From NCBI RefSeq assembly GCF_025751555.1, contig NZ_JAOWLB010000006.1:1-64000 (forward strand): 64,000 nt of DNA. Direction: 5' to 3'. Shown piece by piece: positions 35,674 through 60,476 of the stretch (positions are counted from its first letter, which is position 1; the number at the start of each line of letters is the position of its first letter). The DNA is from Ruegeria aquimaris (GTDB lineage: Bacteria > Pseudomonadota > Alphaproteobacteria > Rhodobacterales > Rhodobacteraceae). The notes below the pieces were generated by a model that was not told the DNA's origin, did not search any database, and saw nothing but the letters and a program-made list of their open reading frames with translations. Both the position numbers and the translations under genes were made by a program.

Positions 35674-35723
35674 ACCTGCCCGTAAATCACCATCTCATGT
35701 CTTGGAACAACGCCGAGGATACC

Positions 35724-36812: not shown

Positions 36813-36821
36813 ATCGGGAAT

Positions 36822-36879: not shown

Positions 36880-36898
36880 GCGGGGTGCAAACTCCGAT

Positions 36899-37882: not shown

Positions 37883-37883
37883 C

Positions 37884-38963: not shown

Positions 38964-39001
38964 CGCCCTCTCCCGCACCGATAGTTGCTGGAGCAGATCA
39001 C

Positions 39002-39019
39002 ATACATGAAAAATCATAT
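39002..39019. promoter_or_regulatory. MarR-type operator site 1
   Basis: ATACATGAAAAATCATAT lies between the divergent opine-dehydrogenase-like and TRAP genes. It matches the inverse of 52152-52169 in 16 of 18 positions and the inverse of 51642-51659 in 15 of 18. No regulator gene is encoded beside this promoter, so one of the MarR genes at 47.6-52.1 kb is a likely binder. Confidence 0.6.
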
Positions 39020-39077: not shown

Positions 39078-39169
39078 AAGTCGGGACAGACCGACCTAAC
39101 TTCACCTGAGGGAATGACCGCCCGACAGAAGGCGGTTCATCCTCCGTCGGATCAACAGGGAGTTGTGAC

Positions 39170-40198: not shown

Positions 40199-40200
40199 CA

Positions 40201-40218
40201 CAGCCTGAAGGCAGGCTG
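40201..40218 (+). repeat. Stem-loop between dctP and dctQ
   Basis: CAGCCTG-AAGG-CAGGCTG, a perfect 7-bp stem two bases after the dctP stop codon and without a T-run. It probably stabilises the dctP message or lowers expression of the membrane subunits, a common arrangement in binding-protein operons. Confidence 0.55.
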
Positions 40219-40261
40219 CGGCTCTGACGCCGTGGCCTGCCTCAGCAAACAAAGCCAAGAA

Positions 40262-40765
40262 ATGATGCGCCTGATCGACCGTATTTGCGACCTGCTGGCC
40301 ATACTGGCCGGTATCTATCTGGTGGGGATCATGTTCGGGATCGTGATCAGCGCGCTGGCCCGCACGCTGAACCTGTCCGGTTCGTGGTCCAGCCATATCT
40401 TCACCTTCACCGAATTCGGCCTGCTCTATATCGTGATGGCCGCCTCGCCCTGGCTGGTGCGCCATCGGGGCCATGTGTTCATCGAGCTTCTGAGCGCGGC
40501 CCTGCCACTCCGGATGCAACGGCCCTACAGCCGGGTGATCTCGGCGCTCTGTGTCGTGATATGCCTTGTGCTGGTCTGGTACACCTGGGGCGCCACGGCC
40601 CGGGCCTGGAAGTTCGGCGATGCCGAAATGCGCAGCCTCGACATGCCGAAATACCTGCTTCTGGGCGCGATGCCGATCGGCTTCGGCCTGATGGCGGCGC
40701 AGTTTCTCCGCTTCGTCTTTGGCCCCGAGACCATGCATACCGGCGAAGCGGGGGTGCACGAATGA
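40262..40765 (+). CDS. TRAP transporter small membrane subunit DctQ-like
   Basis: The roughly 167-residue protein has the four transmembrane helices of DctQ: IDRICDLLAILAGIYLVGIM, TFTEFGLLYIVMAASPWLV, VISALCVVICLVLVWYTWGA and YLLLGAMPIGFGLMAAQFLR. The DctQ motif WLVRHRGHVFIELL (basic residues with H and D/E) is present after helix 2. I chose ATG 40262 because helix 1 begins there; a GTG at 40232 would add ten polar residues. It lies between dctP and dctM. Confidence 0.85.
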   Translation: MMRLIDRICDLLAILAGIYLVGIMFGIVISALARTLNLSGSWSSHIFTFTEFGLLYIVMAASPWLVRHRGHVFIELLSAALPLRMQRPYSRVISALCVVICLVLVWYTWGATARAWKFGDAEMRSLDMPKYLLLGAMPIGFGLMAAQFLRFVFGPETMHTGEAGVHE

Positions 40766-45434: not shown

Positions 45435-47578
45435 GACGCCTCTCCGAAATCAAGCACCCGCCGGGCGCGGCGCGCTTGCAGCCATGTGATGATGCGACTG
45501 CGCCAGCCTGCCAACAGCCGCTCCCACCGCCCCGGATTGTGCACCAGGTCGGCGCGATAGAACGAGGGGCAGAGCACGGCCGCATCCGCCACCTCGCCGC
45601 AATTACCGCAACCGACGCAGGTCTGGTCGATGCTGGCCACCGGATCGTCGCGCAGCGGGTCGTCCAGCACCTTGAGCGACAGCGAGGGACAGCCCGAGAG
45701 GCGAATACAGGCGTGATCGCCGGTGCAGATGTCGGCATCCACACCAAAGCGCGGCGCCTCGACCCGGCGCCCCTCGCGGATCGCCTGGGCGCGCAACGGT
45801 TTCTCGCGCCGCTGCCGGTTCAGCATGCATTCCGACGAGGCCACGATCAGTTTCGGCCCATCATAATCGGTGGTCAGCGCCTCGCGGATGGTGTCGCGCA
45901 TATGGCCCACGTCATAGGTGCGGTCGATCTGGCGCACCCATTTCACCCCCACCCCTTCCAGCGCCTTGGAAATCGGGTTTCCCGTCGCTTTTGAAGGGTT
46001 CTTGGCGCGCGAGGACAGCACATCCTGCCCGCCGGTGGCCGCCGAATAATAGTTGTCCACCACGATGGCCACGCTGTCAGACCGGTTGAACACCATGTTG
46101 CCGATCGAGGAACTGAGCCCGTTATGCCAGAACCCGCCATCGCCGATGAACGAAACAGCGCGCCGCGCGCCGCCGCCGTCAAACGCCGCGTTCGAGGCCG
46201 GGCCAAGCCCGTATCCCATGGTCGAGCCGCCGATCTCGAAGGGCGGCAAGGCGGCAAAGAGGTGACAGCCGATATCGCCGGTGATCTGGTGCTTGCCCAG
46301 CTCCTGCTCGACCAGCTTCATCGCGGCAAAGATGGGCCGTTCCGGGCAGCCGGTGCAGAAGCCCGGCGGCCGGATCGGCACCGTCTGCGACAGGTCGGGC
46401 ATCTCGGGCGGCGGCGCATTCGGGGCAATCACCTGCCCCGGCAACAGCTGCGGCGCGGTGTCCTTCAGGAAACCCGCAATCCCGTCGAGCATGATCTGGC
46501 CGGTATATTCGCCCGCCATGGGGAAAAGGCCCTTGCCATGCAGGCGCACCGGCGACCCGGCCCGGTGCAGCATCGCGGCCAGGCCCTGTTCGATGAACTC
46601 GGGCTGCCCCTCTTCAACCACCAGCAGCGCCTCCTTGCCCCTGGCAAACGCCAGAAACTCACCCTTCACCAGCGGATAGGTGACATTCAGCACATAGAGC
46701 GGGATGGCCGAACGCCCCTCGATATCGGCAAGACCCAGACGCTGGAGTGCCCGGATCACGCCGTTATACATGCCGCCCTGCACCACCAGCCCCACGGGGG
46801 CGCTTTCGGGACCAAACACCTCGTTCAGCCCCCGCTCGGTGATGAAGCGTTCGGCCGCGGGCCAACGGTTTTCCACCTTGTCGCGCTCATGCTGATAGGA
46901 CATCGGCGGCAGCACCACGCGGGCGAAATCGCGGCGCGGCTCTGACAGCGCGTCGCGCACGCTGAGCGGCGGGCGCAGATTATCGGCGCACTGAAACTGG
47001 CCCGTCACATGGCAGGACCGAATCCGCACCATCAGCATCACCGGCGTGTTCGACGCCTCGGACAGCTCAAACCCCTGTTTTACCGCCTGCACGATGGACG
47101 GCAGGTTCGGGCGCGGGTCGAGCAGCCAGAATTGCGATTTCATCGCAAAGGCATGGCTGCGCTCCTGCATGATCGAGGAGCCCTCGCCATAATCCTCGCC
47201 CACGATCACCAGCGCCCCGCCGGTCACCCCCGACGAGGCCAGATTGGCCAGCGCGTCCGAGGCGACGTTGACCCCCACCGCGCCCTTGAAGGTGACCGCG
47301 CCCCGGATCGGGTAATGCACCGAAGCCGCCAGCATGGCCGCCGCCGCCGCCTCGGAGGCATTCGCCTCGTACCGCACCCCCAGTTCGCCCAGCAGGTCCT
47401 GCGCATCGGCCAGCACATCCATCAGGTGGCTGATCGGCGCCCCCTGATAGCCGCCGACATAGCCCACGCCCGATTCCAGCAAGGCCTTGGTGATCGCCAG
47501 AATACCCTCGCCGGTGAAGGTCTCGCCCGCCCCCAGCTTGAGGTCCTGCACCTCGCGTTTGAAGGATCTCTCGGCCAT
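45431..47578 (-). CDS. Indolepyruvate oxidoreductase alpha-type subunit (TPP and iron-sulfur)
   Basis: The 715-residue catalytic subunit has an N-terminal pyrimidine-binding domain (GETFTGEGILAITKALLESG, NASEAAAAAMLAASVHYPIR). The TPP pyrophosphate domain carries GDGGFWHNGLSSSIGNMVFN and VDNYYSAATGGQ, and the conserved FCTGCPERPIFAAM and GDIGCHLFAALPP cysteines precede it. A C-terminal ferredoxin-like part has CTGDHACIRLSGC and CVGCGNCGEVADAAVLC. It converts indole-3-pyruvate or phenylpyruvate plus CoA to the arylacetyl-CoA. The operon order is MarR, alpha, beta, with a 6-bp gap to the MarR gene. Confidence 0.9.
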   Translation of the reverse strand: MAERSFKREVQDLKLGAGETFTGEGILAITKALLESGVGYVGGYQGAPISHLMDVLADAQDLLGELGVRYEANASEAAAAAMLAASVHYPIRGAVTFKGAVGVNVASDALANLASSGVTGGALVIVGEDYGEGSSIMQERSHAFAMKSQFWLLDPRPNLPSIVQAVKQGFELSEASNTPVMLMVRIRSCHVTGQFQCADNLRPPLSVRDALSEPRRDFARVVLPPMSYQHERDKVENRWPAAERFITERGLNEVFGPESAPVGLVVQGGMYNGVIRALQRLGLADIEGRSAIPLYVLNVTYPLVKGEFLAFARGKEALLVVEEGQPEFIEQGLAAMLHRAGSPVRLHGKGLFPMAGEYTGQIMLDGIAGFLKDTAPQLLPGQVIAPNAPPPEMPDLSQTVPIRPPGFCTGCPERPIFAAMKLVEQELGKHQITGDIGCHLFAALPPFEIGGSTMGYGLGPASNAAFDGGGARRAVSFIGDGGFWHNGLSSSIGNMVFNRSDSVAIVVDNYYSAATGGQDVLSSRAKNPSKATGNPISKALEGVGVKWVRQIDRTYDVGHMRDTIREALTTDYDGPKLIVASSECMLNRQRREKPLRAQAIREGRRVEAPRFGVDADICTGDHACIRLSGCPSLSLKVLDDPLRDDPVASIDQTCVGCGNCGEVADAAVLCPSFYRADLVHNPGRWERLLAGWRSRIITWLQARRARRVLDFGEAS

Positions 47579-47584
47579 CTTGCG

Positions 47585-48064
47585 TCAAATCTCGTGCACG
47601 CGGATATTGGCGAGCATCTTATGCAGCGTCGCCAGAAACGCCTGCCGTTCGGCAGCAGGGATGCCGCGGAAAATCCGGTCATGGCTGGCGCGCATATGCG
47701 GCCAGAGGCGGTCATAGACCGCCCTCCCCTCGGCGGTAAGGAAGACACGGCTCGACCTTTGATCGTCGCTATCGACCTCGCGGCGCACCAGCCCGTCAGC
47801 CTGCAACCCGTCCAGAGCCCGCGACAGGGTGGATTGCTCGACCACCGCATAGATACCGAGCATCCCGATGGGCAGGCCATCCTTGGCCGACAGGATTGCC
47901 AGCGCCCGCATCTTGGCGGTACTCAACCCCAGCGCGGTCATCTCCTTGCGCAGGTTGGCGTTATACCGCCCCATGATCCGGTTCATCAGGTAAGGCGCAT
48001 AGCCATCAAGGCCGATTTCGGCCAGTTCCCTGAGTTGTTCGTTCTGATCGGTCGATTCGGCCAT
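47585..48064 (-). CDS. MarR-family regulator heading the IOR operon
   Basis: The 159-residue protein has the MarR winged helix in LRKEMTALGLSTAKMRALAI, then MLGIYAVVEQSTLSRALDGL and REVDSDDQRSSRVFLTAEGRAV (quoted in part) with the wing. N- and C-terminal helices for the dimer are present. It is co-transcribed with the IOR genes and divergent from a thioesterase gene at 48243. A site at 48106-48123 (TTATATGCAAATGCAAGT) resembles the operator family of this region but only loosely. It probably responds to an aromatic acid or its CoA ester. Confidence 0.87.
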   Translation of the reverse strand: MAESTDQNEQLRELAEIGLDGYAPYLMNRIMGRYNANLRKEMTALGLSTAKMRALAILSAKDGLPIGMLGIYAVVEQSTLSRALDGLQADGLVRREVDSDDQRSSRVFLTAEGRAVYDRLWPHMRASHDRIFRGIPAAERQAFLATLHKMLANIRVHEI

Positions 48065-48105
48065 CTGGGTCTTTCAGTCGTTGCTGCCCTTCAGAGTTCC
48101 CGAAA

Positions 48106-48123
48106 TTATATGCAAATGCAAGT
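48106..48123. promoter_or_regulatory. Candidate MarR operator, divergent IOR/thioesterase promoter
   Basis: TTATATGCAAATGCAAGT lies 42 bp before the MarR start. It matches the inverse of the site at 51642 in 12 of 18 positions, so it may be bound by the local MarR rather than by the regulator of the other sites. Confidence 0.4.
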
Positions 48124-48242
48124 AAACTTGATCCCTCGACGGCGCAACCAGCCGGTTTTCCAGGTTCGGGCTTGCCAAATCCCCCCGACCCGGCAATCAC
48201 GGAACCGACACAAATAGACCAGAGAGAGGCCAGACCCGCGAC

Positions 48243-48674
48243 ATGGATAAGATTTTCACCACCGAACGCGAGCTTCGTTTCGGCGACTGCGACATTTCCG
48301 GGACCGCCTATTTCCCTTCTTACCTCGATATCCTCAACAGCGTGAACGAAGAGTTCTGGGCTGTCATGGGCTTTCCCTGGCACCACATCATCTGGAACGA
48401 GCGCTGGGGCACGCCCACCGTGCACCTGAGTTGCGACTTCTCGAAACCCTCGTTCTTTGGCGAGACGCTCCGGTTCGAACTCGGGGTGGTCAAGGTCGGC
48501 CGTTCCTCGGTCACCGTGCGGCACCGGATCAGCTGCGGCGAGGAGATCCGCTGGTCCTCGACCCAGGTCCTGGCGGCCAGCGATCTGGACAAGCACATCT
48601 CGATTGCCTGGCCCGATGCGATGCGCAAGGCGCTGGAAGCGCGCCTTGCCACCCCGGACGAGCTTGGGTTCTAG
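48243..48674 (+). CDS. 4-hydroxybenzoyl-CoA-thioesterase-like hotdog protein
   Basis: The 143-residue hotdog-fold thioesterase carries the 4HBT block LRFGDCDISGTAYFPSYLD, with the catalytic Asp following Gly-Asp-Cys, and then the long helix LNSVNEEFWAVMG. Later strands (TVHLSCDFSKPSFFGETLRF, SVTVRHRISCGEE) are typical. It would hydrolyse an aryl- or acyl-CoA ester. It is divergent from the IOR operon and convergent with the TRAP operon, its stop being 3 bp from theirs. It may serve to recover CoA from a dead-end ester of the same pathway. Confidence 0.83.
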   Translation: MDKIFTTERELRFGDCDISGTAYFPSYLDILNSVNEEFWAVMGFPWHHIIWNERWGTPTVHLSCDFSKPSFFGETLRFELGVVKVGRSSVTVRHRISCGEEIRWSSTQVLAASDLDKHISIAWPDAMRKALEARLATPDELGF

Positions 48675-48677
48675 ATC

Positions 48678-49991
48678 CTACATCTGCGCCGGCAGATAGA
48701 GCGCCAGCGCCGGCACGGCGAGCAGCAATGCCAGCCGGACAATATCCACCACCCAGAACGGCGTGACCCCGCGAAAGATCGTGCCGGTGGTCACGTCGCC
48801 CACCACGCCCTTGAGAACAAAGACATTCAATCCCACGGGAGGGGTGATCAGGCTGATCTCGGTCACCACCACGACAATGATGCCGAACCAGATCGGATCA
48901 TAGCCGAGCGAGGTGACCAGCGGAAAGAAGATCGGCACCGTCAGCAGCAGCATCGAGAGCGATTCGAACACGCAGCCCAGGGCGATATAGATCACCAGGA
49001 TCACCGCCATCACCTGCCACGGCTTCAGATCATAGGCGGTGATCAGGTCGCTCAGCGCCGCGGGCAGCCCCGCCACATTGACGAAGTTCGAGAATATCCA
49101 GGCCCCGATCAGCACCGCAAAAAGGCTGGCCGCCGTGATAGAGGTTTCCAGCAGCACCTCCAACGTGTCCTTCAGGCTGAGCCGCCGCCGCGCCAGCGCG
49201 ATCAGGAAGGCACCCATCGCGCCCATCCCCGCCGCCTCGGTCGGTGAAAAGTTCAGGTTCAGCGGCGGGATGTCGAAGAGACCATAGAGCCCGCCGATCA
49301 CCAGGAAGAACAAGAGCACCACGGCCCAGACCTCGCGCAGGGCCGCAAGCCGTCCGCGCAGCGGCACGCGAGGACCGGCGGGGCCGGCCTCGGGCGTGCG
49401 CCAGACCGTCCAGCGCACCGCACAGAGATAGAGCAGGATGCCCAGCATCCCCGGCACGATGCCCGCGACAAACAGCTTGCCGATCGAGGTCTCGGTCAAC
49501 AGGCCATAGATCACCAGGATCACCGAGGGCGGGATCAGGATGCCCAGCGTGCCGCCCGCCGCGATAGATGCGGTGGACAACTCGTCGGAATAGCCGAACC
49601 GGCGCATTTCGGGCATGGCCACCTTGGCCATGGTGGCTGCCGTGGCCAGCGACGAGCCGGAAATGGCGGCAAACCCGCCGCAGGCCACGATAGTGGCCAT
49701 CGCCAGACCGCCGCGCAGGTGACCGAGAAAGGCGTTCGAAGCCGCGTAAAGCTCGCGGCTGATGCCGCCCTTGTTCACGAACAGCCCCATCAGGATGAAG
49801 AGCGGCACCACCGACAGGCCATAGTCCTGGCTGGTGTCGATGATCAGCCGCGCCACCATCGAGATCGAGGCGCGGAAATTGCTCTCGGCCATGAAACCCA
49901 CCATGCCGACAAATCCCATGGCAAAGGCGATGGGCACGCGGACCAGGATCAGGATCAGAACCGCCGCAAATCCGACAAGCGATGCGGTCAT
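48678..49991 (-). CDS. TRAP transporter large membrane subunit DctM-like (second system)
   Basis: The 437-residue permease has around twelve hydrophobic segments and the DctM marks VVPLFILMGLFVNKGGISRE, ISGSSLATAATMAKVAMPEM, ASIAAGGTLGILIPPSVILV, FSPTEAAGMGAMG and ISLITPPVGLNVFVLKGV. It differs clearly from the copy at 40793, so the two systems are not a recent duplication. Its ATG overlaps the dctQ stop (ATGA). It is the last gene of the second P-Q-M operon. Confidence 0.9.
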   Translation of the reverse strand: MTASLVGFAAVLILILVRVPIAFAMGFVGMVGFMAESNFRASISMVARLIIDTSQDYGLSVVPLFILMGLFVNKGGISRELYAASNAFLGHLRGGLAMATIVACGGFAAISGSSLATAATMAKVAMPEMRRFGYSDELSTASIAAGGTLGILIPPSVILVIYGLLTETSIGKLFVAGIVPGMLGILLYLCAVRWTVWRTPEAGPAGPRVPLRGRLAALREVWAVVLLFFLVIGGLYGLFDIPPLNLNFSPTEAAGMGAMGAFLIALARRRLSLKDTLEVLLETSITAASLFAVLIGAWIFSNFVNVAGLPAALSDLITAYDLKPWQVMAVILVIYIALGCVFESLSMLLLTVPIFFPLVTSLGYDPIWFGIIVVVVTEISLITPPVGLNVFVLKGVVGDVTTGTIFRGVTPFWVVDIVRLALLLAVPALALYLPAQM

Positions 49992-50482
49992 GGCGCGCTC
50001 CCCGCTAGGCGCGGCGCCACGATCAGCAGCACGCCGCGCACCACCAGCACCACCGCTGTGATCAAAGTCATCACCGCGATGAACCAGCCGACCACGTGCA
50101 GCGGCAGACGCAGATATTCCATGACATCTCCATAGGAACGCGACCGCTCCGCCAGGTCGAACACCCGTTGCGCGGGCAGGAACAGGATCGCGCCACAAAA
50201 CAGACAGACCGCCGCATCGCGCCAGCGCGACAGACGGAACCGGGCGAAGGGAGCATCCAGGAGATCCACACTTACATGAGCATTCCGGCCCGAAAGGACC
50301 GGCATGACTGAAAACACCATCACCGCCATCAACAGGCGCGTGAGATCAGCCGCCACCTCGATAGGTGCGTTAAAGACCGAGCGCAGCACCACATCGGCGA
50401 AGGTCATCACCATCAGGACGAACAGCGCGACCGAGGCCAGAAGACCGGGCAGCCAGACGGAAAGGGAGAAAAGACGCATCAT
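49988..50482 (-). CDS. TRAP transporter small membrane subunit DctQ-like (second system)
   Basis: The roughly 164-residue protein with four membrane helices (LLASVALFVLMVMTFADVVL, LTRLLMAVMVFSVMPVLSG, DAAVCLFCGAILFLPAQRV, LHVVGWFIAVMTLITAVVLV) carries the DctQ block SGRNAHVSVDLLDAPF after helix 2. I start it at ATG 50482, just before the first helix. It lies between dctP and dctM with an ATGA overlap to the latter. Confidence 0.83.
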   Translation of the reverse strand: MMRLFSLSVWLPGLLASVALFVLMVMTFADVVLRSVFNAPIEVAADLTRLLMAVMVFSVMPVLSGRNAHVSVDLLDAPFARFRLSRWRDAAVCLFCGAILFLPAQRVFDLAERSRSYGDVMEYLRLPLHVVGWFIAVMTLITAVVLVVRGVLLIVAPRLAGSAP

Positions 50483-50535
50483 ATCGCAATCGCAAACGTG
50501 CCGCCCCGGGGATCGGAGCGGCACATGCTTGCATG

Positions 50536-51552
50536 TCAGTTCGCGGCCATTTCGGCCTTGACCATCTCATAGGCGGCCTGCGCGTCCACGCCCGCCCCTT
50601 CGAGCTCGCCCAGAACCTTGGCGGTCACCTCTGCCGCAATCGCGGCAAACTTGGCCTGATCCTCGGCCGAGGCGTCGACGATCTTGGTCCCCTCGGCCGA
50701 CTTGGTGGCCTCGTAGCCGATCATGTCCGACTTGTCCCAGGCCGCGCCCGCCATCCGGCTGGCCGGCTCACCAAACACCTTTTCATCCAGCGCTGCCTGA
50801 ACATCGGCGGGCAGGCTGTCAAAGGTCTCCTGGCTCATGATGATGGCAAACGATCCGCGATAGAAACCGCCCGGCATGTCGTAGAGGTTCTTGGCCACTT
50901 CGTTCAGCTTGAAGCCCACACGCTCGCCCACGTTCATCGCCACCGCGTCGGCGGCACCGGATTCCAGCGTCTCATAGACCTTGGGCGCGGGCACGTTGAT
51001 CCCCACCAGACCCAGCGCCGCACCGACATCGCCCGCAACGCCGCCACCGATCCGGGTCTTCAGCCCGTTCAGGTCGGCAAGCGAGGCCACGTCCTTGCTG
51101 GTGTGGATCTGACCCGGACCATGGGTGTTCAGCGAGATCAGCTTGACGCCCCGATGTTCATCCAGCTTGGCCAGATGCGCTTCGTGCACGCGCCAATACG
51201 CGACCGAGGCGGCCTCGGCATTGCCTTCAAAGCCCGGCAGTTCGATCAGCTTGGTGCCGACAAAGCGGCCCGGCTGGTAGCCGTGAAAGATGATCGCGAT
51301 ATCGGCCGCACCGTCCTGAATCAGGTCCATCTGCGCTGGCGGCGGCGCCAGGCCAAAGACCAGCTCGCCGCTGACCTGCCCGCCGCTGGCCTCTTCGATC
51401 ATGCCGATCAGGCCCGCGAAGATCTCGGTGTTGATGCCGTGGGTCGGCGGCAACCAGGTGGAAACGCGCAAGGTGGTGTCAGCCGCCCAGGCGGCCATGC
51501 TGGTGCTGGCGCAGACGACCGCTGCGGCGGCAAGGCGTGCAAAATGCTTCAT
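50536..51552 (-). CDS. TRAP transporter solute-binding protein DctP-like (second system)
   Basis: This 338-residue receptor has a signal peptide ending AAWAADTT, then TLRVSTWLPPTHGINTEIFA and GELVFGLAPPPAQMDLIQDG. The carboxylate-binding arginine block ADLNGLKTRIGGGVAGDV, the PAPKVYETLESGAADAVAM segment and the long C-terminal helix follow. It is the first gene of the operon. A palindromic MarR-type site lies 90-107 bp upstream, between it and the MarR gene, matching those before the Rieske operon and the 39-kb TRAP genes. Its ligand is probably the organic acid degraded by the neighbouring oxygenase operon. Confidence 0.88.
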   Translation of the reverse strand: MKHFARLAAAAVVCASTSMAAWAADTTLRVSTWLPPTHGINTEIFAGLIGMIEEASGGQVSGELVFGLAPPPAQMDLIQDGAADIAIIFHGYQPGRFVGTKLIELPGFEGNAEAASVAYWRVHEAHLAKLDEHRGVKLISLNTHGPGQIHTSKDVASLADLNGLKTRIGGGVAGDVGAALGLVGINVPAPKVYETLESGAADAVAMNVGERVGFKLNEVAKNLYDMPGGFYRGSFAIIMSQETFDSLPADVQAALDEKVFGEPASRMAGAAWDKSDMIGYEATKSAEGTKIVDASAEDQAKFAAIAAEVTAKVLGELEGAGVDAQAAYEMVKAEMAAN

Positions 51553-51667: not shown

Positions 51668-52123
51668 TCAGGTCGCATCGGGCCGGTCCAGAACATCCAG
51701 CAACGTGCGCAAAACCCCCTTGATACGGGCGGCATCCGTATCGGCCAGCGCTGACAGCAACCGGGTTTCGTGCCGTCGCGCATCCTTGACCAGCGCTTCG
51801 GCCAGGTCCCTGCCCTCGGCGGTCAGACGCACCCGCACGCGTCGCTTGTCATTGGAATCGGCAACCCGCGTCACCAACCCGCGCGCATCCATCTGATCAA
51901 CGATTCGCGTCATCCGCGACTGTTCCATCAGCGACAGCCGGGCCAGGCGGGTGATCATCATGCCGTCATTGTCCACCAGACAGGCCAATACCCGCCATTC
52001 CGGCACTCGCAGTCCGCGCGCGCGGACATGGTCATGAAACTGCGCGCTGGCCTGCTCGCTGGACGCCGCGAGAAGATACAGCAGATAGCCGGTCACAAAG
52101 GTGTCGTTCTGGGTTTCACTCAT
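51668..52123 (-). CDS. MarR-family regulator of the Rieske oxygenase and TRAP operons
   Basis: This 151-residue MarR protein has the winged helix in LRVPEWRVLACLVDNDGMMI, TRLARLSLMEQSRMTRIVDQ, RGLVTRVADSNDKRRVRVRL and TAEGRDLAEALV. I start it at ATG 52123; an upstream in-frame ATG at 52165 falls inside the palindromic operator, so it is less likely. It is divergent from the reductase gene of the oxygenase operon, with the operator at 52152-52169 in the gap. In Variovorax, indole-3-acetate degradation loci are likewise controlled by MarR proteins. Confidence 0.87.
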   Translation of the reverse strand: MSETQNDTFVTGYLLYLLAASSEQASAQFHDHVRARGLRVPEWRVLACLVDNDGMMITRLARLSLMEQSRMTRIVDQMDARGLVTRVADSNDKRRVRVRLTAEGRDLAEALVKDARRHETRLLSALADTDAARIKGVLRTLLDVLDRPDAT

Positions 52124-52151
52124 GAGGTCTGAATTTGTCTTGACTCGATTT

Positions 52152-52169
52152 ATATGATTTTTCATATTT
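52152..52169. promoter_or_regulatory. MarR-type operator between regulator and oxygenase operon
   Basis: ATATGATTTTTCATATTT contains the palindrome ATATGA-TTTT-TCATAT and matches the inverse of 39002-39019 in 16 of 18 positions. It lies 20 bp before the reductase start and so would block that promoter. Confidence 0.65.
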
Positions 52170-52188
52170 TCAGCAGGGAGGCGCCGAG

Positions 52189-53115
52189 ATGCTCAAGCTG
52201 ACAATTGCGCAGAAACTGGCCGTGACCAAGCGGATTTCGGCATTCACTCTGGTCGCGGCCGATGGCGAAGCCCTGCCCGGTTACACCGCCGGGGCACATA
52301 TCGCCGTCGAAACCGCCGCCGGACCACGCAGCTATTCGCTGATCGACTGGCCCGGTGACACGCCCGGCGCCTATAGCATTGCGGTCCAGCGCGAAGACGC
52401 GGGCGACGGCGGCAGCAAGGCCATGCATGCCCTGTCCAAAGGCGACACCATCACCGCAGCAGAACCGAAAAACGACTTTGAGATTCGGACCGAAGACAAG
52501 CCCGCTGCCCTGCTGGCGGGCGGCATCGGTGTGACACCGCTGATCTCGATGGCCACCGCGCTCCGGGCGCAATCGCGCCCCTTCGTCTTTCATTATTGTG
52601 GCCGCAGCGCCGATGTCATGGCCTGGCTGGACCGGTTGCGCGACGAATTCGGGGGCAGTTTCCACGCCCATTTCGACGATACCGCGCCCTTGGACCTAAA
52701 CACGCTGATGGCGGGTCTCACCGGTCACGCGCTCTATATCTGTGGCCCCAAGGGCATGATCGACGCCGCCCGCGCCGCCGCAGAGGCGGCGGGCATTTCC
52801 GACATCCATGTGGAGCTGTTCACCAATGCCGCGCCCGCCGCTGGCGACAGCGCCTTCGAGGTCGAGATCGCCTCGTCGGGCCAGGTCATCACCGTGGCGC
52901 CCGATCAGACCATCATCGAGGCGCTCGAGGCCGCGGGCCTCGACCCGCTTTACGATTGTCAACGCGGCGATTGCGGCATCTGCCAGACCGAGGTGATCGC
53001 GGGCACCCCCGATCACCGCGACGTGGTGCTCAGCCAGGCCGAACGCGACAGCGGCAAGGTCATGCAAATCTGTGTCAGCCGGGCGCTCAGCGCGCGCCTT
53101 GTGCTGGATCTGTAA
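52189..53115 (+). CDS. Rieske oxygenase reductase (VanB-like, flavin and [2Fe-2S])
   Basis: The 308-residue phthalate-dioxygenase-reductase-type protein has a flavin domain (PGYTAGAHIAVETAAGPRSYS with the RSYS FMN-binding motif), an NAD domain (ALLAGGIGVTPLISMA and YICGPKGMIDAARAAA) and a C-terminal plant-type ferredoxin (DPLYDCQRGDCGICQTEV, then QICVSRA). It passes electrons from NADH to the Rieske oxygenase encoded next. ATG 52189 follows AGGGAGG. It is the first gene of an eight-gene operon. The family match to VanB/IadC-type reductases is clear. Confidence 0.9.
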   Translation: MLKLTIAQKLAVTKRISAFTLVAADGEALPGYTAGAHIAVETAAGPRSYSLIDWPGDTPGAYSIAVQREDAGDGGSKAMHALSKGDTITAAEPKNDFEIRTEDKPAALLAGGIGVTPLISMATALRAQSRPFVFHYCGRSADVMAWLDRLRDEFGGSFHAHFDDTAPLDLNTLMAGLTGHALYICGPKGMIDAARAAAEAAGISDIHVELFTNAAPAAGDSAFEVEIASSGQVITVAPDQTIIEALEAAGLDPLYDCQRGDCGICQTEVIAGTPDHRDVVLSQAERDSGKVMQICVSRALSARLVLDL

Positions 53116-53126
53116 GGGAGGACGGC

Positions 53127-54452
53127 ATGAACGCGAACGATATCAGGGCGATGATCCAGCCCGCCCAGGTGCATCGCGATGTCTATATCAGCGATGCGGT
53201 CTACCAGTTGGAGATGCGCCACCTGTTCACCAATGCCTGGATCTTTGTCGGCCATGACAGCCAGACCCCGAACAAGGGCGATTACATCACCACGCAGGTC
53301 GGAGACCAGCCGGTGATCATGGTGCGTCACACCGATGGCGAGGTGAAGGTTCTCTATAACCGCTGCCCGCACAAGGGCACCAAAATCGCCATCGACCGGG
53401 CCGGCAACACCGGCAAGTTCTTTCGCTGCCCCTATCACGCCTGGAGCTTCAAGACCGACGGCTGCCTGCTCGCCATCCCGCTGAAGAAGGGATACGAGGG
53501 CACCGGCCTGTCCGACAGCCAGAACGGCAAGGGGATGCAGGCGGTGGGTGCGGTGCACAATTATCGCGGCTTTGTCTTTGCGCGGCTGGCCGAAGCGGGG
53601 ATCGGGTTCGACGACTTCTTTGGTGGCTCTCTCAGTTCCATCGACAACATGGTCGACCGCGCGCCTGAAGGCCGCGTGGAAATTTCCGGCCCGCCGCTGC
53701 GCTACATGCACAAGTGCAACTGGAAAATGCTGGTCGAGAACCAGACCGACACCTGTCATCCGATGGTCGCGCATGAAAGCTCCGCCGGGACAGCGGTGAA
53801 GATCTACGAGCAGATGGGCAACCCCGAACCGCGCCCGCCCGCGATGCAGATCATCGCGCCCTTCATGAGCCCTTATGAGTTCTTCGAAGATATGGGCATC
53901 CGCACCTGGCCCAACGGCCACGGCCATACCGGCGTCAATATGTCGATCCATTCGAACTATGACGCCATCCCCGGCTATTTCGAGGCCATGGTCGAGAGTT
54001 ACGGCGCGGAGCGCGCCAAGGCGATCCTGGACGAGAACCGGCACAACACCGTCTATTTCCCCAACATCATGATCAAGGCGCCGCTGACGCAGCTGCGCAA
54101 CTTCATCCCGCTGGGGGCGGACCGGACGCTGGTGGAAAGCTATGTCTACCGGCTGGTCGGCGCGCCCGAGCAGCTGACTGCCATGTCGGCCATGTATAAC
54201 CGGATGATCAACGCCCCCACCTCGATCGTGGGGCATGACGATCTGGAGATGTACGAGCGCGCGCAAGAGGGGCTGCATGCCGAGGGCATGCAATGGGTCG
54301 ACATCCGGCGGCTGCATACAGGGCCTGAGGATTTCGAGACCGAAGCGGTCGAAAACGGCACCACCGAACGGCAGATGCGCAACCAGTTCCACGCCTGGGC
54401 CAAGTTCATGACCATGTCGATGGAGGACGCCGCTGGCGTCGCCGCCGAATGA
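53127..54452 (+). CDS. Rieske ring-hydroxylating oxygenase, alpha subunit
   Basis: The 441-residue catalytic subunit has the Rieske cluster ligands Cys80/His82 (NRCPHKG) and Cys101/His104 (FRCPYHAW). The mononuclear-iron block is ENQTDTCHPMVAHE, with bridging Asp208 and iron ligands His211 and His216; the residue usually Tyr before the first His is Cys210. It fits alpha subunits that work with a small beta subunit, such as those of indole-3-acetate (IadD), aniline or anthranilate type. With the reductase and beta subunit it would add oxygen to an aromatic ring. It overlaps the beta gene by ATGA. Confidence 0.92.
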   Translation: MNANDIRAMIQPAQVHRDVYISDAVYQLEMRHLFTNAWIFVGHDSQTPNKGDYITTQVGDQPVIMVRHTDGEVKVLYNRCPHKGTKIAIDRAGNTGKFFRCPYHAWSFKTDGCLLAIPLKKGYEGTGLSDSQNGKGMQAVGAVHNYRGFVFARLAEAGIGFDDFFGGSLSSIDNMVDRAPEGRVEISGPPLRYMHKCNWKMLVENQTDTCHPMVAHESSAGTAVKIYEQMGNPEPRPPAMQIIAPFMSPYEFFEDMGIRTWPNGHGHTGVNMSIHSNYDAIPGYFEAMVESYGAERAKAILDENRHNTVYFPNIMIKAPLTQLRNFIPLGADRTLVESYVYRLVGAPEQLTAMSAMYNRMINAPTSIVGHDDLEMYERAQEGLHAEGMQWVDIRRLHTGPEDFETEAVENGTTERQMRNQFHAWAKFMTMSMEDAAGVAAE

Positions 54453-54946
54453 GCGAGGGGAATGCAGCAATGATCACCCGCGACGACGTGATCGACTTCA
54501 TCTATGCCGAAACCCGAATGCTGGACGAGGGCCGCTATACCGAATGGCTCGACCTGTGGCTGCCCGATGCGGTCTACTGGATGCCGCTCGACTACAAGCA
54601 GGCCGATCCGGTCAATGCGACCTCGTTCCTTTACGAGGACAATTTCATGCTGCGCCTCAGGGTCGAGCGGCTGAATGGCGAGCGGACCTTTTCGCAGAAA
54701 CCCAAATCGCGCTGCAACCACGTGATCCAGCGGCCCTTTGTCGATGTCTTCGACCCCGAGGCGGGCAAGTTCCAGACCGTGACCAACATGCATTATGTCG
54801 AAACCCGGCTGGACGAACAGCAGCTCTTGGCCCTCACCGTGACCCATGACCTGGCACTGGTGGGCGGCGCATTCCGTATCGCGGGCAAGAAGGTGGAGCT
54901 GCTCAATTGCGACGCCGCCTTCGGCAATATCCAGCTGCTGCCGTGA
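54449..54946 (+). CDS. Rieske oxygenase beta subunit
   Basis: The 165-residue NTF2-like subunit has the family pattern VIDFIYAETRMLDEGRYTEWL, WLPDAVYWMPLD, NFMLRLRVERLNG and the KSRCNHVIQRPFV block. It stabilises the oxygenase hexamer. ATG 54449 overlaps the alpha stop; ATG 54470 behind GAGGGG is an alternative and would remove seven residues. It overlaps the CoA ligase start by GTGA. Confidence 0.9.
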   Translation: MSEGNAAMITRDDVIDFIYAETRMLDEGRYTEWLDLWLPDAVYWMPLDYKQADPVNATSFLYEDNFMLRLRVERLNGERTFSQKPKSRCNHVIQRPFVDVFDPEAGKFQTVTNMHYVETRLDEQQLLALTVTHDLALVGGAFRIAGKKVELLNCDAAFGNIQLLP

Positions 54947-56556
54947 GCGCCGAGACGGTTTATGCCGCCATCGCGGCCACGGCGGCACGCTGGCCGGATC
55001 GCCCGCTGCTTGACGTGCTGCCCGGCACGGCGGCGGCCTATGACATCGCGGCCGGACCGGTCAGCTATGGCACCTTCCTTGCGCGCGTGGATGCGCGGGC
55101 CGAGGCGCTGAAAAAGGTTGGCTATGGCGTGGGGATGCGGGTGGCGGCGCTCTTGGAAAACCGGCCCGTGTTTTTCGAGCTTTTTGCCGCGCTCAACCGC
55201 ATCGGCGCCTCGATCGTGCCGATCAACCCCGACCTGCGCGCCGCCGAACTGGAATACCTGATCGGCCATGCACAACCGGCGCTGATCGTCGCCCTGCCCG
55301 CCCGTGCCGAAGAACTGCACGCGGCGGCCTTGGCGGCGGGCGTTACCGCCCCGGTCATCGGGGCCGGGGACGCCCCGCCCCCACCCCGCGCAAATGCCGC
55401 CGTGACCGAGCCGCGTGAGGGCGAGGCGCGCGAGGCGGCACTGCTTTATACCTCGGGCACCACCGGCAACCCAAAGGGCTGCGTGCTGCCCAATGCCTAT
55501 TTCCTGCTGGCGGGGCGGTGGTATGCCGATCTGGGCGGGGTCGCCTCGCTGACCGAAACGGGCGAGCGGATGATCACGCCCCTGCCGATCTTTCACATGA
55601 ACGCCATGGCCTATTCCTTCATGGCGATGGTCACCGTGGGCGGCTGCCTGATCGCGCTTGACCGGTTCCACCCGTCCAGCTGGTGGGCCGATGTGGCCAA
55701 GGCGCGCGCCACCTGCCTCCATTATCTGGGCGTCATGCCCTCGATCCTGATGTCCCTGCCCGAGGGACCACAGGACCGCGCCCATCAGGTGCGCTTTGGC
55801 TTTGGCGCGGGCATCGACCCCAAATTACAGGCGGGGTTCGAGGCGCGGTTCGGCTTTCCGCTGATCGAGGCCTGGGCGATGACCGAAACCGGCGCGGGCG
55901 CGGTGATCGCCGCCCATACGCATGACCGGTTGATCGGCCAATCCTGTCTGGGCCGGGCCGAAGGCTGGGTCGCGGCCCGCGTGGTCACCGATACCGGGCA
56001 GGACGCCGCCCCGGACGAGCCGGGCGAACTCTTGGTCCGCAATGCCGGTCCCGACCCGCGCTACGGCTTTTTCTCGCATTACGACAAGAACCCCGAGGCC
56101 ACCGCCGAGGCCTGGGAGGGCGGCTGGTTCCACACCGGCGATATCGTGCGCCGCGATGCGCAGGGGCGGTTCTTCTTCGTCGACCGCAAGAAGAACGTGA
56201 TCCGCCGTTCGGGCGAGAATATCGCCGCGGTCGAGGTGGAAAGCGTGCTGATGCGCCACCCGTCCATCCGCGCGGCGGGCGTGGCCGCGGTGCCCGACCC
56301 GATGCGCGGGGACGAGGTGTTTGCCTGCCTCACCGTCGATGCCCCCTCATCCGATCTTGCCCAGCAGATTGCAGAGTGGGCGCTGACCCAGATGGCCTAT
56401 TACAAGGTGCCGGGCTATATTGCCTTTGTGGACAACCTGCCGATGACCCCCACCCAGAAGATCCAGCGCAAGGCGCTGAAGGAGATGGCCGAGGCTCTGC
56501 TGGCGGATCCGGCCACGGTGACGCTCACGCATCTCAAGAAACGGCAGGTGGCGTGA
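54943..56556 (+). CDS. AMP-forming acyl/aryl-CoA ligase
   Basis: The 537-residue adenylate-forming ligase has the P-loop LLYTSGTTGNPKGCVLPN, the A5-type motif EAWAMTETGAG, the A7 block WFHTGDIVRRDAQGRFFFVD and the C-terminal RRSGENIAAVEVE with catalytic lysine in TQKIQRKALKE. It starts at GTG 54943, which overlaps the beta-subunit stop. It would activate the hydroxylated aromatic acid to its CoA thioester before carbon-chain cleavage by the thiolase-like pair that follows. The exact acid cannot be read from the binding pocket. Confidence 0.87.
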   Translation: MSAETVYAAIAATAARWPDRPLLDVLPGTAAAYDIAAGPVSYGTFLARVDARAEALKKVGYGVGMRVAALLENRPVFFELFAALNRIGASIVPINPDLRAAELEYLIGHAQPALIVALPARAEELHAAALAAGVTAPVIGAGDAPPPPRANAAVTEPREGEAREAALLYTSGTTGNPKGCVLPNAYFLLAGRWYADLGGVASLTETGERMITPLPIFHMNAMAYSFMAMVTVGGCLIALDRFHPSSWWADVAKARATCLHYLGVMPSILMSLPEGPQDRAHQVRFGFGAGIDPKLQAGFEARFGFPLIEAWAMTETGAGAVIAAHTHDRLIGQSCLGRAEGWVAARVVTDTGQDAAPDEPGELLVRNAGPDPRYGFFSHYDKNPEATAEAWEGGWFHTGDIVRRDAQGRFFFVDRKKNVIRRSGENIAAVEVESVLMRHPSIRAAGVAAVPDPMRGDEVFACLTVDAPSSDLAQQIAEWALTQMAYYKVPGYIAFVDNLPMTPTQKIQRKALKEMAEALLADPATVTLTHLKKRQVA

Positions 56557-57731
56557 TGGCGCGGCCTGCCAGCTATGAGGGCGTGGCGCTGGTGGCGCCC
56601 TTCTCGACGCCCTATCAGCGCTATTCCATCGACACTGCCCATCACTGGATCGCCACCGCCCTGCGCGGGTCACTGCGGGCGGCGGGGCTGAAGCCCGGCG
56701 ATCTCGATGGGTTCCAGGTCGCGTCCTTCACGCTGTTTCCCGATACCGCCGTGGGGCTGACCCAGCATCTGGGCCTCTGTCCGCGCTGGCTGGACCATAT
56801 CCCGATGGGCGGCGCCTCGGCCGGGGTGGCCCTGCGCCGGGCGGCGCGCGCTGTGCAGGCGGGTGACGCCGAAATCATCGCCTGCGTCGCAGGCGACACC
56901 AACCATATCGACAGTTTCCGGCAACTCCTGTCCAGCTTTTCGCGCTTTGCGATGGATGCCAGCTATCCCTATGGCTACGGCGGCCCGAATGCGAGCTTTG
57001 CCCTGCTGACCGACCGCTACATGACCGACTACGGCGCCACGCGCGAGGATTTCGGACGGCTCTGCGTGGCCCAGCGCGCCAATGCGCTGAAAAACCCGAA
57101 CGCGGTGATGAAGAAACCGCTGACGATGGAGCAATACCTGGATGCCCGCCCCATCGCCGACCCCATTGCGCTCTTTGACTGCGTGATGCCCTGCGCCGGG
57201 GCCGAGGCGTTTCTGGTCATGTCCGAGGATCGGGCGCGGGCGCTGAACCTGCCCTATGCCCGGCTGGCTGCCGCGATCGAGCGGCACAATGCCCATGCCG
57301 ACGACCCGATCCAGCTGCGCGGCGGCTGGACGATGGATGTGGATGTGCTCTGGGATCAGGCCGGGATGGCACCGCAGGAGATGGATCTGGTGCAGACCTA
57401 TGACGACTATCCGGTGATTTCGATGATGCAGATCGAGGATCTGGGGTTCTGCGCCAAGGGCGAGGCCCCTGCGTTTCTGCGCGACAAGGATCTGACGGTG
57501 TCGGGCGACTTCCCGCACAACACCTCGGGCGGGCAGCTTTCCGGCGGTCAGGCCGGGGCAGCGGGCGGCTTCATCGGCATGGTCGAGGCAATCCGCCAGG
57601 TCACCGGACAGGCGGGCGGCACGCAGGTGCCGGGCGCGGAACACGCGCTGGTCTCGGGCTTTGGCATGATCAATTTCGACCGAGGCCTCTGTTCCAGCGC
57701 CGCAGTCCTCACGACCGGAGCGCGCGCATGA
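56556..57731 (+). CDS. Thiolase-like protein without thiolase cysteine, probable retro-aldolase (Ltp2-like)
   Basis: The 391-residue protein has the SCP2/thiolase fold, but the nucleophile cysteine position is Ala87 (MGGASAGVALR). The base histidine of the usual GHPxGA block is Gln332 (LSGGQAGAAGG). Real thiolysis is thus unlikely. Ltp2 and related proteins have the same loss, bind a DUF35 partner and cleave tertiary 3-hydroxyacyl-CoA esters by a retro-aldol reaction, using tyrosines; here Tyr282 and Tyr285 (TYDDYP) are candidates. The next gene encodes just such a DUF35 protein. It starts at ATG 56556, sharing a base with the ligase stop. Confidence 0.82.
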   Translation: MARPASYEGVALVAPFSTPYQRYSIDTAHHWIATALRGSLRAAGLKPGDLDGFQVASFTLFPDTAVGLTQHLGLCPRWLDHIPMGGASAGVALRRAARAVQAGDAEIIACVAGDTNHIDSFRQLLSSFSRFAMDASYPYGYGGPNASFALLTDRYMTDYGATREDFGRLCVAQRANALKNPNAVMKKPLTMEQYLDARPIADPIALFDCVMPCAGAEAFLVMSEDRARALNLPYARLAAAIERHNAHADDPIQLRGGWTMDVDVLWDQAGMAPQEMDLVQTYDDYPVISMMQIEDLGFCAKGEAPAFLRDKDLTVSGDFPHNTSGGQLSGGQAGAAGGFIGMVEAIRQVTGQAGGTQVPGAEHALVSGFGMINFDRGLCSSAAVLTTGARA

Positions 57732-58984
57732 CCCATCCCCTGTCCCCGCCGCCCAAGAAAGACCCGCAGAAACGCTCGGTCTCACCGACCCGTCCGCCCG
57801 AGGTGCGGTCGCGCGCCGCCCTCCACCTGAGCGCCGCCGCCGCCGAGGGACGGTTCGCCCTGCAACGCTGCGCCGACTGCGGCAAGGTGCAATACCCGCC
57901 GCGCGATGCCTGTTCTGCCTGCCTGAGCACAGACCTGCCATGGCAGGACATGGCGCCGGGCGGTACGCTGATCGCCGAGACCACGGTACGGACCTCGCCC
58001 CGGCTTTACTTCCGCGAGCGGATGCCGTGGCGCGCGGGCACCGTGCAGCTCGATGCCGGCCCCACCGTGCTGGCCCATATCCATGGCGATGTGGCCCGCC
58101 ACGCCCGCGTGCGCGTCACCGCCCGGCTTGACCAGGCAGGCCAGGGCGTGCTGGTTGCCCTGCCTGAAACCGACACCCCGAACATGGAGGACGACCCGCT
58201 GATGCGTGCCCTCTCTGCCGATCCCAAACACCGCCGCGTGCTGATCACCGATGCCCGCAGTGCGCAAGCCCCCGCGCTGGCGCGCGCCCTTCAAAAGGCG
58301 GGTGCCGCGATCATCTTCGCCGGTGAGCCGGAAAGCTGGCGACCCTATCCGCAACGCGCCGAGTTGGAGGCGCTGGGGGTACAGATCCTGCCGATGGACG
58401 TGACCGACACCGCATCGGTGCAGAAACTGGCGGGTGAGATCGGCGGCAAGACCGATATCCTGATCAATACCGCCCGGTTCCTGCGTCCCGGCGGCGTGCT
58501 GGACCGGGGCGATACCGGCTTTGCCCGCGACGAGCTGGAGGTGAATTACCTTGGCCTGATGCGGCTGGCGCAGGCATTCGGTCCGGCCATGTGCGCGCGT
58601 GCCTCGGACGGCGTGAATGCCGCCGCCGCATGGGTCAACCTGCTCAGCGTCGGCGCGCTGAGCAATGCGCGCCCCTTCGGCGCCTATTCCGCCAGCCAGG
58701 CCGGGGCCTATTCGCTCAGCCAGTCGCTGCGCGCCGAATTCCGGCCCTCGGGCCTCAGGGTGATGAACGTGTTCTTTGGCCCCACCGAAGAGGATGACTG
58801 GTACCAGCCGCTGCCACCGCCGCGCGTGACAGCCGCCGCCTTGGCCCGCTCCGTCGTGGACGGGCTGCAACGGGGATTGGAAGACGTCTGGTGCGGCGAC
58901 ATCGCCCAGGACCTGCGCGACCGCTTCCGCCGCGACCCCAAGGTGCTGGAACGCGAAATGACGCTGGGAGGAGAAGGCGCATGA
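57728..58984 (+). CDS. DUF35 (Zn-ribbon/OB-fold) fused to a degenerate SDR domain
   Basis: This 418-residue protein has two parts. Residues about 30-160 form a DUF35 domain: zinc ribbon with Cys48, Cys51, Cys62, Cys65 (RCADCGKVQYPPRDACSAC) and an OB-fold (GGTLIAETTVRTSPRLYF). Residues about 165-418 follow the short-chain dehydrogenase fold. However, the cofactor loop reads LITDARSAQAPALA without the Gly-x-x-x-Gly-x-Gly pattern, and the active-site motif is Tyr320-SAS-Gln324 instead of YxxxK. The SDR part is therefore probably not a working dehydrogenase. The DUF35 part should pair with the thiolase-like protein encoded just before (ATGA overlap). Confidence 0.8.
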   Translation: MTHPLSPPPKKDPQKRSVSPTRPPEVRSRAALHLSAAAAEGRFALQRCADCGKVQYPPRDACSACLSTDLPWQDMAPGGTLIAETTVRTSPRLYFRERMPWRAGTVQLDAGPTVLAHIHGDVARHARVRVTARLDQAGQGVLVALPETDTPNMEDDPLMRALSADPKHRRVLITDARSAQAPALARALQKAGAAIIFAGEPESWRPYPQRAELEALGVQILPMDVTDTASVQKLAGEIGGKTDILINTARFLRPGGVLDRGDTGFARDELEVNYLGLMRLAQAFGPAMCARASDGVNAAAAWVNLLSVGALSNARPFGAYSASQAGAYSLSQSLRAEFRPSGLRVMNVFFGPTEEDDWYQPLPPPRVTAAALARSVVDGLQRGLEDVWCGDIAQDLRDRFRRDPKVLEREMTLGGEGA

Positions 58985-59757
58985 GCACTCTGACCAATCT
59001 CGCCACCCGCCTCGCCAGCGGAGAGATCCGGGTCGTCGACCTGACCCACACGCTCGACCCCGATTTCCCGGTGATCATCCTGCCGCCCGAATTCGGCCAA
59101 TGCGCCCGCTTTCGCATGGAGGAAATCAGCGCCTATGACCATCGCGGCCCGGCGTGGAAATGGCACAATATCTCGATGTCCGAACACACCGGCACCCATT
59201 TCGACGCGCCCGCGCACTGGATCTCGGGCCGCGACCTGCCGCGCGCGGCGGTGGACGAGATCGACCCGGCCGATTTCATCGGCCCGGTCTGCGTGATCGA
59301 CTGTTCGCAAGGCGCGGCAGAGGACGAGGATTTCGAACTGACCGTTCCCCTGATCGAAGGCTGGGAGGCCGCCCATGGCCGCATCCCCGCCGGGGCCTGG
59401 GTGCTGATGCGCACCGACTGGTCGAAACGGCGCGGTGCCGGATACCTCAACATGCGCGAGGACGGACCGCATTCGCCGGGGCCGACCCCCGAGGCCATCC
59501 GTTTCCTGATCGACCAGCGCGACATTCGCGGGTTCGGCGTCGAAACCGTGGGCACCGATGCCGGTCAGGGCAGCCACTATACTCCGCCCTATCCTGCGCA
59601 TTACTACCTGCACGGCGCGGGGCGCTATGGGCTGCAATGCCTGTCGGATCTCGACCAACTGCCGCCCACCGGCGCGGTGCTGATCGCCGCCCCGCTCAAG
59701 ATCAAGAACGGCACCGGCAGCCCGCTCAGGGTACTGGCGCTGGTGGAGGAGACATGA
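58981..59757 (+). CDS. Metal-dependent cyclase-family amidohydrolase, isatin-hydrolase-like
   Basis: The 258-residue protein belongs to the cyclase/kynurenine-formamidase family. The metal site is SEHTGTHFDAPAHW with His69, His73, Asp75 and His79, the HxGTHxDxPxH signature. Nearby aromatic residues and the late GVETVGTDAGQGSH block are also family features. Bacterial members include arylformamidase and the manganese-dependent isatin hydrolase, which has a similar length and the same metal motif near residue 73. In an operon with an oxygenase and a retro-aldolase-like protein, hydrolysis of isatin or an N-acyl anthranilate-type product is likely. It overlaps its neighbours by ATGA. Confidence 0.85.
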   Translation: MSTLTNLATRLASGEIRVVDLTHTLDPDFPVIILPPEFGQCARFRMEEISAYDHRGPAWKWHNISMSEHTGTHFDAPAHWISGRDLPRAAVDEIDPADFIGPVCVIDCSQGAAEDEDFELTVPLIEGWEAAHGRIPAGAWVLMRTDWSKRRGAGYLNMREDGPHSPGPTPEAIRFLIDQRDIRGFGVETVGTDAGQGSHYTPPYPAHYYLHGAGRYGLQCLSDLDQLPPTGAVLIAAPLKIKNGTGSPLRVLALVEET

Positions 59758-60476
59758 CCCATACCGCCGTCATCACCGGGGGCAACAAGGGCATCGGCGC
59801 TGATCTGGCGCAGGCGCTCTTGGCGCGCGACTACACGGTCGTGTCGATCTCGCGCCACGCGCCCGAGGTCACCCACCCGCGCCTCAACTCGGTCGAGGCC
59901 GATCTGTTGGACGGCCAGGCGGTGGCCGAAGCCGCCGCTGAGGTCGCGGCAAAGCACGAAGTCACCCACCTGATCCACAATGCGGGCCTGATCTGGCCCA
60001 ATCTGATCGAAGAGGCCGAGCCCTCGGACATCACCGGGCTGGCGCAATTGCATCTGGGGTCCGCCCTGACACTGCTCAAGGCGTTTCTGCCCGCGATGAA
60101 GGCGCGGCAATTCGGGCGGGTGATGTTCAACGGCTCACGCGCCGCCCTTGGCGCGCCCACCCGCACCGCCTATGGCGCCACCAAGGCCGGCATGATCGGC
60201 ATGGCGCGCACCTGGGCTCTGGAACTGGCCCCCCATGGCATCACCGTCAACGTGGTGGCGCCCGGCCCCATTCTGACCGACAATTTCTGGGGCATCGTCG
60301 AAAAGGACAGCCCGCAGCAGGAGGCGCTGGCCAAGCGCATCCCGGTAGGCCGGATCGGACGGGTCGACGATGTCACCCGCGCGTTTCTGTTCTTCTGCGA
60401 CCCGGAAAACAGCTTTGTCACCGGCCAGACCCTCTATGTCTGCGGTGGCGCCAGCGTCGGTTCGCTGCAAATCTGA
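59754..60476 (+). CDS. Short-chain dehydrogenase/reductase
   Basis: The 240-residue SDR has intact motifs: cofactor loop VITGGNKGIGADLA, the NAG block in LIHNAGLIWPN, catalytic Ser in MFNGSRAALG, Tyr and Lys in AYGATKAG, and the VAPGPILTDNFW segment. It is thus a real oxidoreductase, in contrast to the domain in the DUF35 fusion. It is the last gene of the oxygenase operon and convergent with the large IOR gene. A dioxindole-isatin or related alcohol-ketone step would fit the inferred pathway, but the substrate is unproven. Confidence 0.88.
   Translation: MTHTAVITGGNKGIGADLAQALLARDYTVVSISRHAPEVTHPRLNSVEADLLDGQAVAEAAAEVAAKHEVTHLIHNAGLIWPNLIEEAEPSDITGLAQLHLGSALTLLKAFLPAMKARQFGRVMFNGSRAALGAPTRTAYGATKAGMIGMARTWALELAPHGITVNVVAPGPILTDNFWGIVEKDSPQQEALAKRIPVGRIGRVDDVTRAFLFFCDPENSFVTGQTLYVCGGASVGSLQI

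Follow-up and report, generated by a model that had tools for sequence, protein, structure and literature searches.

A proposed retro-aldol route for loss of the acetyl side chain in an iad-type auxin degradation operon of Ruegeria aquimaris

How is the acetyl side chain removed when bacteria degrade the auxin indole-3-acetate (IAA) by means of an iad operon? The question is raised by an eight-gene locus, iadCDEFGHIJ, in the first 64,000 nucleotides of the Ruegeria aquimaris contig NZ_JAOWLB010000006.1, the stretch that is called the window here. The locus is an iad-type operon for IAA degradation, a kind already known, and neither the substrate nor the operon is new. We consider it likely that it stands under an IAA-sensing MarR regulator and that IadCDE, IadJ, IadF, a retro-aldol step by IadG with the DUF35 domain of IadH, and finally IadI form a route to isatinate. 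With rather less assurance, though still on balance in favor, we propose that IadG and DUF35 represent a third kind of thiolase-fold acyl-coenzyme A (CoA) retro-aldolase, characterized by a Tyr-Asp pair (YDDY) and an aromatic tertiary 3-hydroxyacyl-CoA substrate, that the dehydrogenase of IadH is dead and serves as a structural tail, and that the iad route runs via isatin itself, with no thiolysis and no reductive step.

Identity of the operon and its substrate

All eight genes that a sequence-only reading had placed in this operon were found on the forward strand (52189-60476; cf. Table 1), and the Pfam family agreed for each of them. Neighboring genes touch, overlap, or stand 11 bases apart, and their order is that of iadCDEFGHIJ in the preprint PMC12633357. 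IadD scored 552.9 bits against Variovorax IadD (9o71), the next family reaching 137.3 bits, and shares 53.4% identity with 7yls across 408 compared residues. All 7 metal ligands are conserved in it, as are 8 of the 9 residues that PMC10374108 lists for the IAA pocket, the one change being Leu211 to Gln. In PMC9613470, all tested strains with IAA loci degraded IAA, and R. pomeroyi was among the strains grown; PMC11630574 gives a further survey of degraders. The sequence-only reading, which had the operon degrade IAA via isatin, was therefore right but not new, since published work on operons of this type already covers both the substrate and a passage through isatin (PMC9613470; PMC12633357).

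That a different indole or aryl-acetate, rather than IAA, is the substrate of the operon seems to us barely credible, although the distribution of its genes offers this idea some ground. Locus counts given here and below come from a scan with one genome per species, in which the 80 named loci are the best-scoring 80 of at least 591 confirmed, so they reflect the near relatives and not the family at large. In 17 genomes (of 18 addressed, L104 being left out), iadG, iadH, and in part iadI lie apart from iadDE, and the best IadD found elsewhere in the genome was 64-66% identical in 8 of them, 52% in one, 41% in one, and at most 37% in three, while four had no match. Since seven of these genomes thus have remote matches only or none, the G-H-(I) module appears to meet other entry routes too, and the cleavage module can therefore travel without the oxygenase. 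Against another substrate in the window stand the IAA pocket of IadD, the fact that the MarR orthologue encoded next to the same operon binds IAA, and IAA degradation by a species of the same genus. The eight genomes in which the separate IadD reaches 64-66% identity (L063, L067, L071, L079, L081, L082, L086, and L093) are mostly from Bradyrhizobium, and other lineages have a remote IadD or none.

Side-chain cleavage and ring opening

The best match of IadG, in both sequence and structure, was CtSal, the retro-aldolase Sal. For counting IadG-type proteins, an identity of at least 54% was taken as the cut-off, which 73 of the 80 named loci reached. The nucleophilic Cys of 3-ketoacyl-CoA thiolases is replaced by Gly in all 74 IadG sequences, and thiolysis by IadG was dropped on this account. 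The earlier description of the protein as cysteine-less thus holds for the thiolase nucleophile, but its literal wording was wrong and was abandoned, as the window IadG has 7 Cys; Cys 110, 209, and 213 are invariant (74/74), and C299 is present in 72 of 73 readable sequences. A Gly-Gly at the nucleophile site was also found in 37 of 37 whole-genome loci aligned, most of them not IadG. Because it is common to this wider thiolase-like family, it distinguishes IadG from thiolases, yet taken alone it does not make the protein an aldolase; what sets IadG apart is YDDY together with the Gln pair. The YDDY motif, base Tyr included, is invariant in all 73 readable sequences, with YDD also in 6 of 7 remoter relatives, and Gln332 occupies the site of Tyr344 in Ltp2, matching Gln352 of CtSal.

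With the steroid retro-aldolases Sal-Shy(DUF35) and Ltp2-ChsH2(DUF35), IadG shares a thiolase fold without the nucleophile Cys, the base Tyr of a YDxx motif, and a DUF35 partner, so that it has the features of a DUF35-partnered thiolase-fold retro-aldolase. However, it is neither a Sal, having YDDY in place of YDCY with the catalytic Cys304, nor an Ltp2, lacking both YDHF and the second catalytic Tyr344. Furthermore, its DUF35 partner is fused to a degenerate short-chain dehydrogenase/reductase (SDR) domain, whereas the steroid systems have a hydratase instead, and its substrate would be aromatic. The earlier suggestion of retro-aldol cleavage without thiolysis gained support from the match to CtSal, the absent nucleophile, and the invariant base Tyr, the cleavage chemistry of this aldolase reading being deduced from anatomy and chemical reasoning. 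Relatives of IadG with 40-43% identity and the same YDDYP motif occur in two further loci (L111, 9959-11137; L114, 9935-11137), each in an operon for an ABC transporter that also has a CoA-transferase family III gene; in L111, AtuA-like and DUF4387 genes are present as well. By similarity, no IadH was detected in their neighborhood, and they are possibly a further family of the same kind.

The DUF35-SDR fusion seen earlier in IadH was found, its SDR half being degenerate. While the zinc ribbon of DUF35 is kept in 71 of 71 sequences, TGxxxGxG is missing from the SDR half in all 65 compared, and Tyr and Lys of YxxxK occur together in only 2 of 65; the window protein has the Tyr, with Gln in place of Lys. 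Six loci encode DUF35 alone, without the SDR half. In contrast, IadJ has both hallmarks of a classical SDR, TGxxxGxG and YxxxK, in 47 of 47 sequences, window included. Judging from these residues, the SDR domain of IadH probably does not function as a reductase, and, being degenerate, it should be assigned a redox step only after an assay. Otherwise, the earlier interpretation was supported.

IadI carries the HxGTHxDxPxH motif that had been reported for the cyclase, and over 257 residues it shares 81.3% identity with isatin hydrolase A of Labrenzia aggregata (5nnb). The latter enzyme, in turn, shares 96.1% identity with the IadI encoded in the Roseibium aggregatum ZYF612 iad operon. The metal motif HxG[T/A]HxDxPxH was present in 63 of 63 IadI sequences compared, and the signature was GLQC in 60 and GLPA in 3; the characterized enzyme has a Michaelis constant (Km) of 16 µM for isatin, and GLQC/GLAS is its named signature (PMC6117287). 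Nothing compared separates IadI from this enzyme, and the prediction that the cyclase is an isatin hydrolase is strengthened by it.

According to the Variovorax preprint, IadCDE and IadJ take IAA to C10H9NO4, read as dioxindole-3-acetate, which accumulates when iadF, G, H, or I is lost (PMC12633357). On this basis, IadCDE would oxygenate IAA and IadJ would dehydrogenate the hydrated product to dioxindole-3-acetate, from which IadF would make the CoA ester. Then, IadG, together with the DUF35 domain of IadH, would split dioxindole-3-acetyl-CoA, a tertiary 3-hydroxyacyl-CoA, by a retro-aldol reaction into isatin and acetyl-CoA, with Tyr282 of IadG as the likely base and Asp284 at the place of the catalytic Cys of Sal. 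IadI would open isatin to isatinate, a reaction shown for the 81% identical enzyme.

The same preprint offers a different account, in which IadG acts as a ketothiolase and IadH as a functional dehydrogenase, reduction removes the acetyl chain, the true intermediate is dioxindole, and IadI, called a possible broad-specificity amidase, acts downstream of it (PMC12633357). This account fits the database annotations, the structure nearest to the IadH SDR is NADP-bound, and C8H7NO2 accumulates both when iadI is deleted and in a strain in which every gene except iadI is expressed (PMC12633357). We nevertheless regard it as improbable, given (i) the lack of the nucleophile Cys in every IadG, (ii) the SDR motif losses and the six loci without an SDR half, and (iii) the close relationship of IadI to a proven isatin hydrolase. 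Furthermore, thiolysis requires a 3-ketone, which cannot be formed from a tertiary alcohol. In our scheme, C8H7NO2 would be dioxindole that other reductases of the cell form from isatin. A compromise, in which IadG and IadH perform the retro-aldol step and the SDR half uses a non-standard active site to reduce isatin to dioxindole, appears more doubtful again, as it is opposed by the same motif losses, by the loci without this half, and by an isatin hydrolase as the next enzyme. In passages of PMC12633357, PMC9613470, PMC10374108, PMC11630574, and PMC6117287, consulted after a search of open-licence PMC papers, we saw no aldolase or isatin-hydrolase role linked to iad; such a link may already be in print.

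IadR and its putative operator

The MarR gene said to diverge from the operon was found, and its product is 87% identical (129/148) to 3CDH, the MarR of R. pomeroyi that belongs to the iadR group and binds IAA with a dissociation constant of 0.237 µM (PMC9613470). Since the alignment with 3CDH begins near a Met at residue 15 of the longest open reading frame, we placed the start at about 52123. The protein keeps the carboxylate contacts Ser28, His32, and Arg46 of Variovorax MarR73 as well as Tyr15 and Trp45, whereas two indole-side contacts are changed (Tyr for Ala18 and Leu for Val65). It thus has the features expected of an IadR-type regulator and is predicted to bind IAA.

Between iadR and iadC lies an operator-like palindrome, whose first base, 52152, is the position at which the sequence-only reading had begun the locus; a -35-like TTGACT (52140-52145) was noticed by eye 17 bases ahead of CATATT. 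With at most one mismatch, ATATGAWWWWTCATAT has two sites in the 5.04-Mb genome, at 52152 and 39004, both in the window, while the reversed control pattern has none. With at most two mismatches, the window contains 5 sites compared with 0.40 expected, including a putative operator between the MarR and TRAP genes (51642; 2 mismatches). Among 12 named loci in which a MarR at least 52% identical faces iadC, the palindrome was found with at most two mismatches in 11 of the divergent gaps and was exact in 6; in the exception, L041, the site is altered yet still self-complementary. It is exact, too, in the Roseibium locus (L121), and the remaining 13 gaps (MarR identity at most 42%) have 2 to 5 mismatches, mostly chance level.

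The site at 39004-39019, the only other near-perfect one in the genome, lies upstream of a second TRAP operon (DctP, 39170-40198; DctM, 40793-42130) and is shared with a divergent octopine-dehydrogenase-like gene (37884-39017). This operon and the dehydrogenase-like gene are likely a second target of IadR.

Relatives and flanking genes

Among the 73 IadG-type loci, CDEFGHIJ was complete and collinear in 29, more than chance. In the 50 of these 73 that had full flanks (length above 20 kb), F and H were present in 50 each, I in 47, D in 35, J in 32, and C in 29, with MarR in 25, iorA in 22, iorB in 20, DctM-like genes in 13, and DctP-like genes in 12. IadG-type genes also matched 47 plasmid records, 31 with 60-80% identity. 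A genome from the genus of the window (G292) has IadD and IadF-J 95-98%, IadE 93%, MarR 87%, and IadC 81% identical to those of the window, the same palindrome, and an adjoining MarR gene identical to 3CDH over 149 residues. We infer that it is Ruegeria pomeroyi DSS-3, because it carries 3CDH and a second IadG (contig 2, 139159-140313) placed as on the DSS-3 megaplasmid NC_006569.1 (139165-140319). Over the genes compared, its operon shows no difference of kind from that of the window. Apparently, R. pomeroyi has a chromosomal iad operon that closely resembles that of the window (contig 1, L125) and another on the plasmid (NC_006569.1, L122), with IadG about 60% identical.

The iad locus of Variovorax paradoxus CL14 (PMC9613470, PMC10374108, PMC12633357) shares the content and order of C to J, the MarR gene, and IadA/IadB-like genes. 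However, the window has a TRAP transporter, a candidate uptake system, where the published locus has ABC/IadK2, its oxidoreductase pair is set apart on the other strand, and its operator ATATGANNNNTCATAT was not seen in the gaps of 5 Variovorax loci (3 to 5 mismatches).

Indolepyruvate-oxidoreductase-type genes do occur on both sides of the operon, as noted earlier. Genes of this type (iorA/iorB) have been described as markers for iad loci (PMC9613470), and the split pair, 4.6 kb beyond the start side of the operon, resembles iadA/iadB. It is separated from the operon by the TRAP genes and a 4HBT-type thioesterase gene (48243-48674), a relative of which (70% identical) is also found next to the iad operon in Roseibium aggregatum (L121). 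The fused 1152-residue gene looks incidental, since in none of the 50 full-flank loci was the fused form a better match than the split pair. Our guess is that the flanking oxidoreductases convert isatinate, an aryl-2-oxoacid, to anthranilate or its CoA ester; the main text of the preprint has no mention of iadA, iadB, or indolepyruvate (PMC12633357). Farther out (28950-38083) lie genes for hydantoinase B and A, an isochorismatase, a phosphoenolpyruvate mutase, a flavin adenine dinucleotide oxidoreductase, and an aminotransferase, with a 3-hydroxyacyl-CoA dehydrogenase gene facing the run. Pfam gave no family for the frames 39155-40759 (-) and 47009-48214 (+), both of which overlap likelier genes.

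Table 1. Positions of the iad operon, its regulator and operator-like site, and flanking genes in the window
Feature	Position	Strand	Basis or remark
Split indolepyruvate-oxidoreductase-type pair, IadA/IadB-like	43890-47578	-	Pfam POR, DUF6537, TPP_enzyme_C
TRAP transporter (DctM, DctQ, DctP)	48678-51552	-	Pfam
IadR, MarR-family repressor	51668-52165 (longest open reading frame; likely start ~52123)	-	87% identity to 3CDH
Operator-like palindrome ATATGATTTTTCATAT	52152-52167	.	Between likely MarR start (~52123) and iadC (52189)
IadC, reductase with 2Fe-2S domain	52189-53115	+	Pfam Fer2 and NAD_binding_1; position and order match iad loci
IadD, Rieske oxygenase alpha subunit	53127-54452	+	Similarity to Variovorax IadD, metal ligands, IAA pocket
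IadE, oxygenase beta subunit	54449-54946	+	Pfam Ring_hydroxyl_B
IadF, acyl-CoA ligase, presumed substrate dioxindole-3-acetate	54943-56556	+	Pfam AMP-binding and AMP-binding_C
IadG, thiolase-fold protein, proposed retro-aldolase (Tyr282, Asp284)	56556-57731	+	
IadH, DUF35 (ChsH2-type) domain fused to degenerate SDR domain	57728-58984	+	
IadI, predicted isatin hydrolase	58981-59757	+	81.3% identity to isatin hydrolase A, Labrenzia aggregata
IadJ, SDR, TGxxxGxG and YxxxK intact	59754-60476	+	Pfam, motif check
Fused indolepyruvate-oxidoreductase-type gene, 1152 aa	60494-63952	-	Directly downstream of operon

The proposed retro-aldol step offers a testable answer to the loss of the acetyl side chain, which was left to annotation in the 2025 preprint (PMC12633357), and IadI ties together the literatures on isatin hydrolases and on iad operons. 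Related iad genes of Variovorax counter the inhibition of root growth caused by auxin (PMC12633357). If our proposal is true, DUF35 aldolases of the steroid type would also have a role in the degradation of an aromatic plant hormone.
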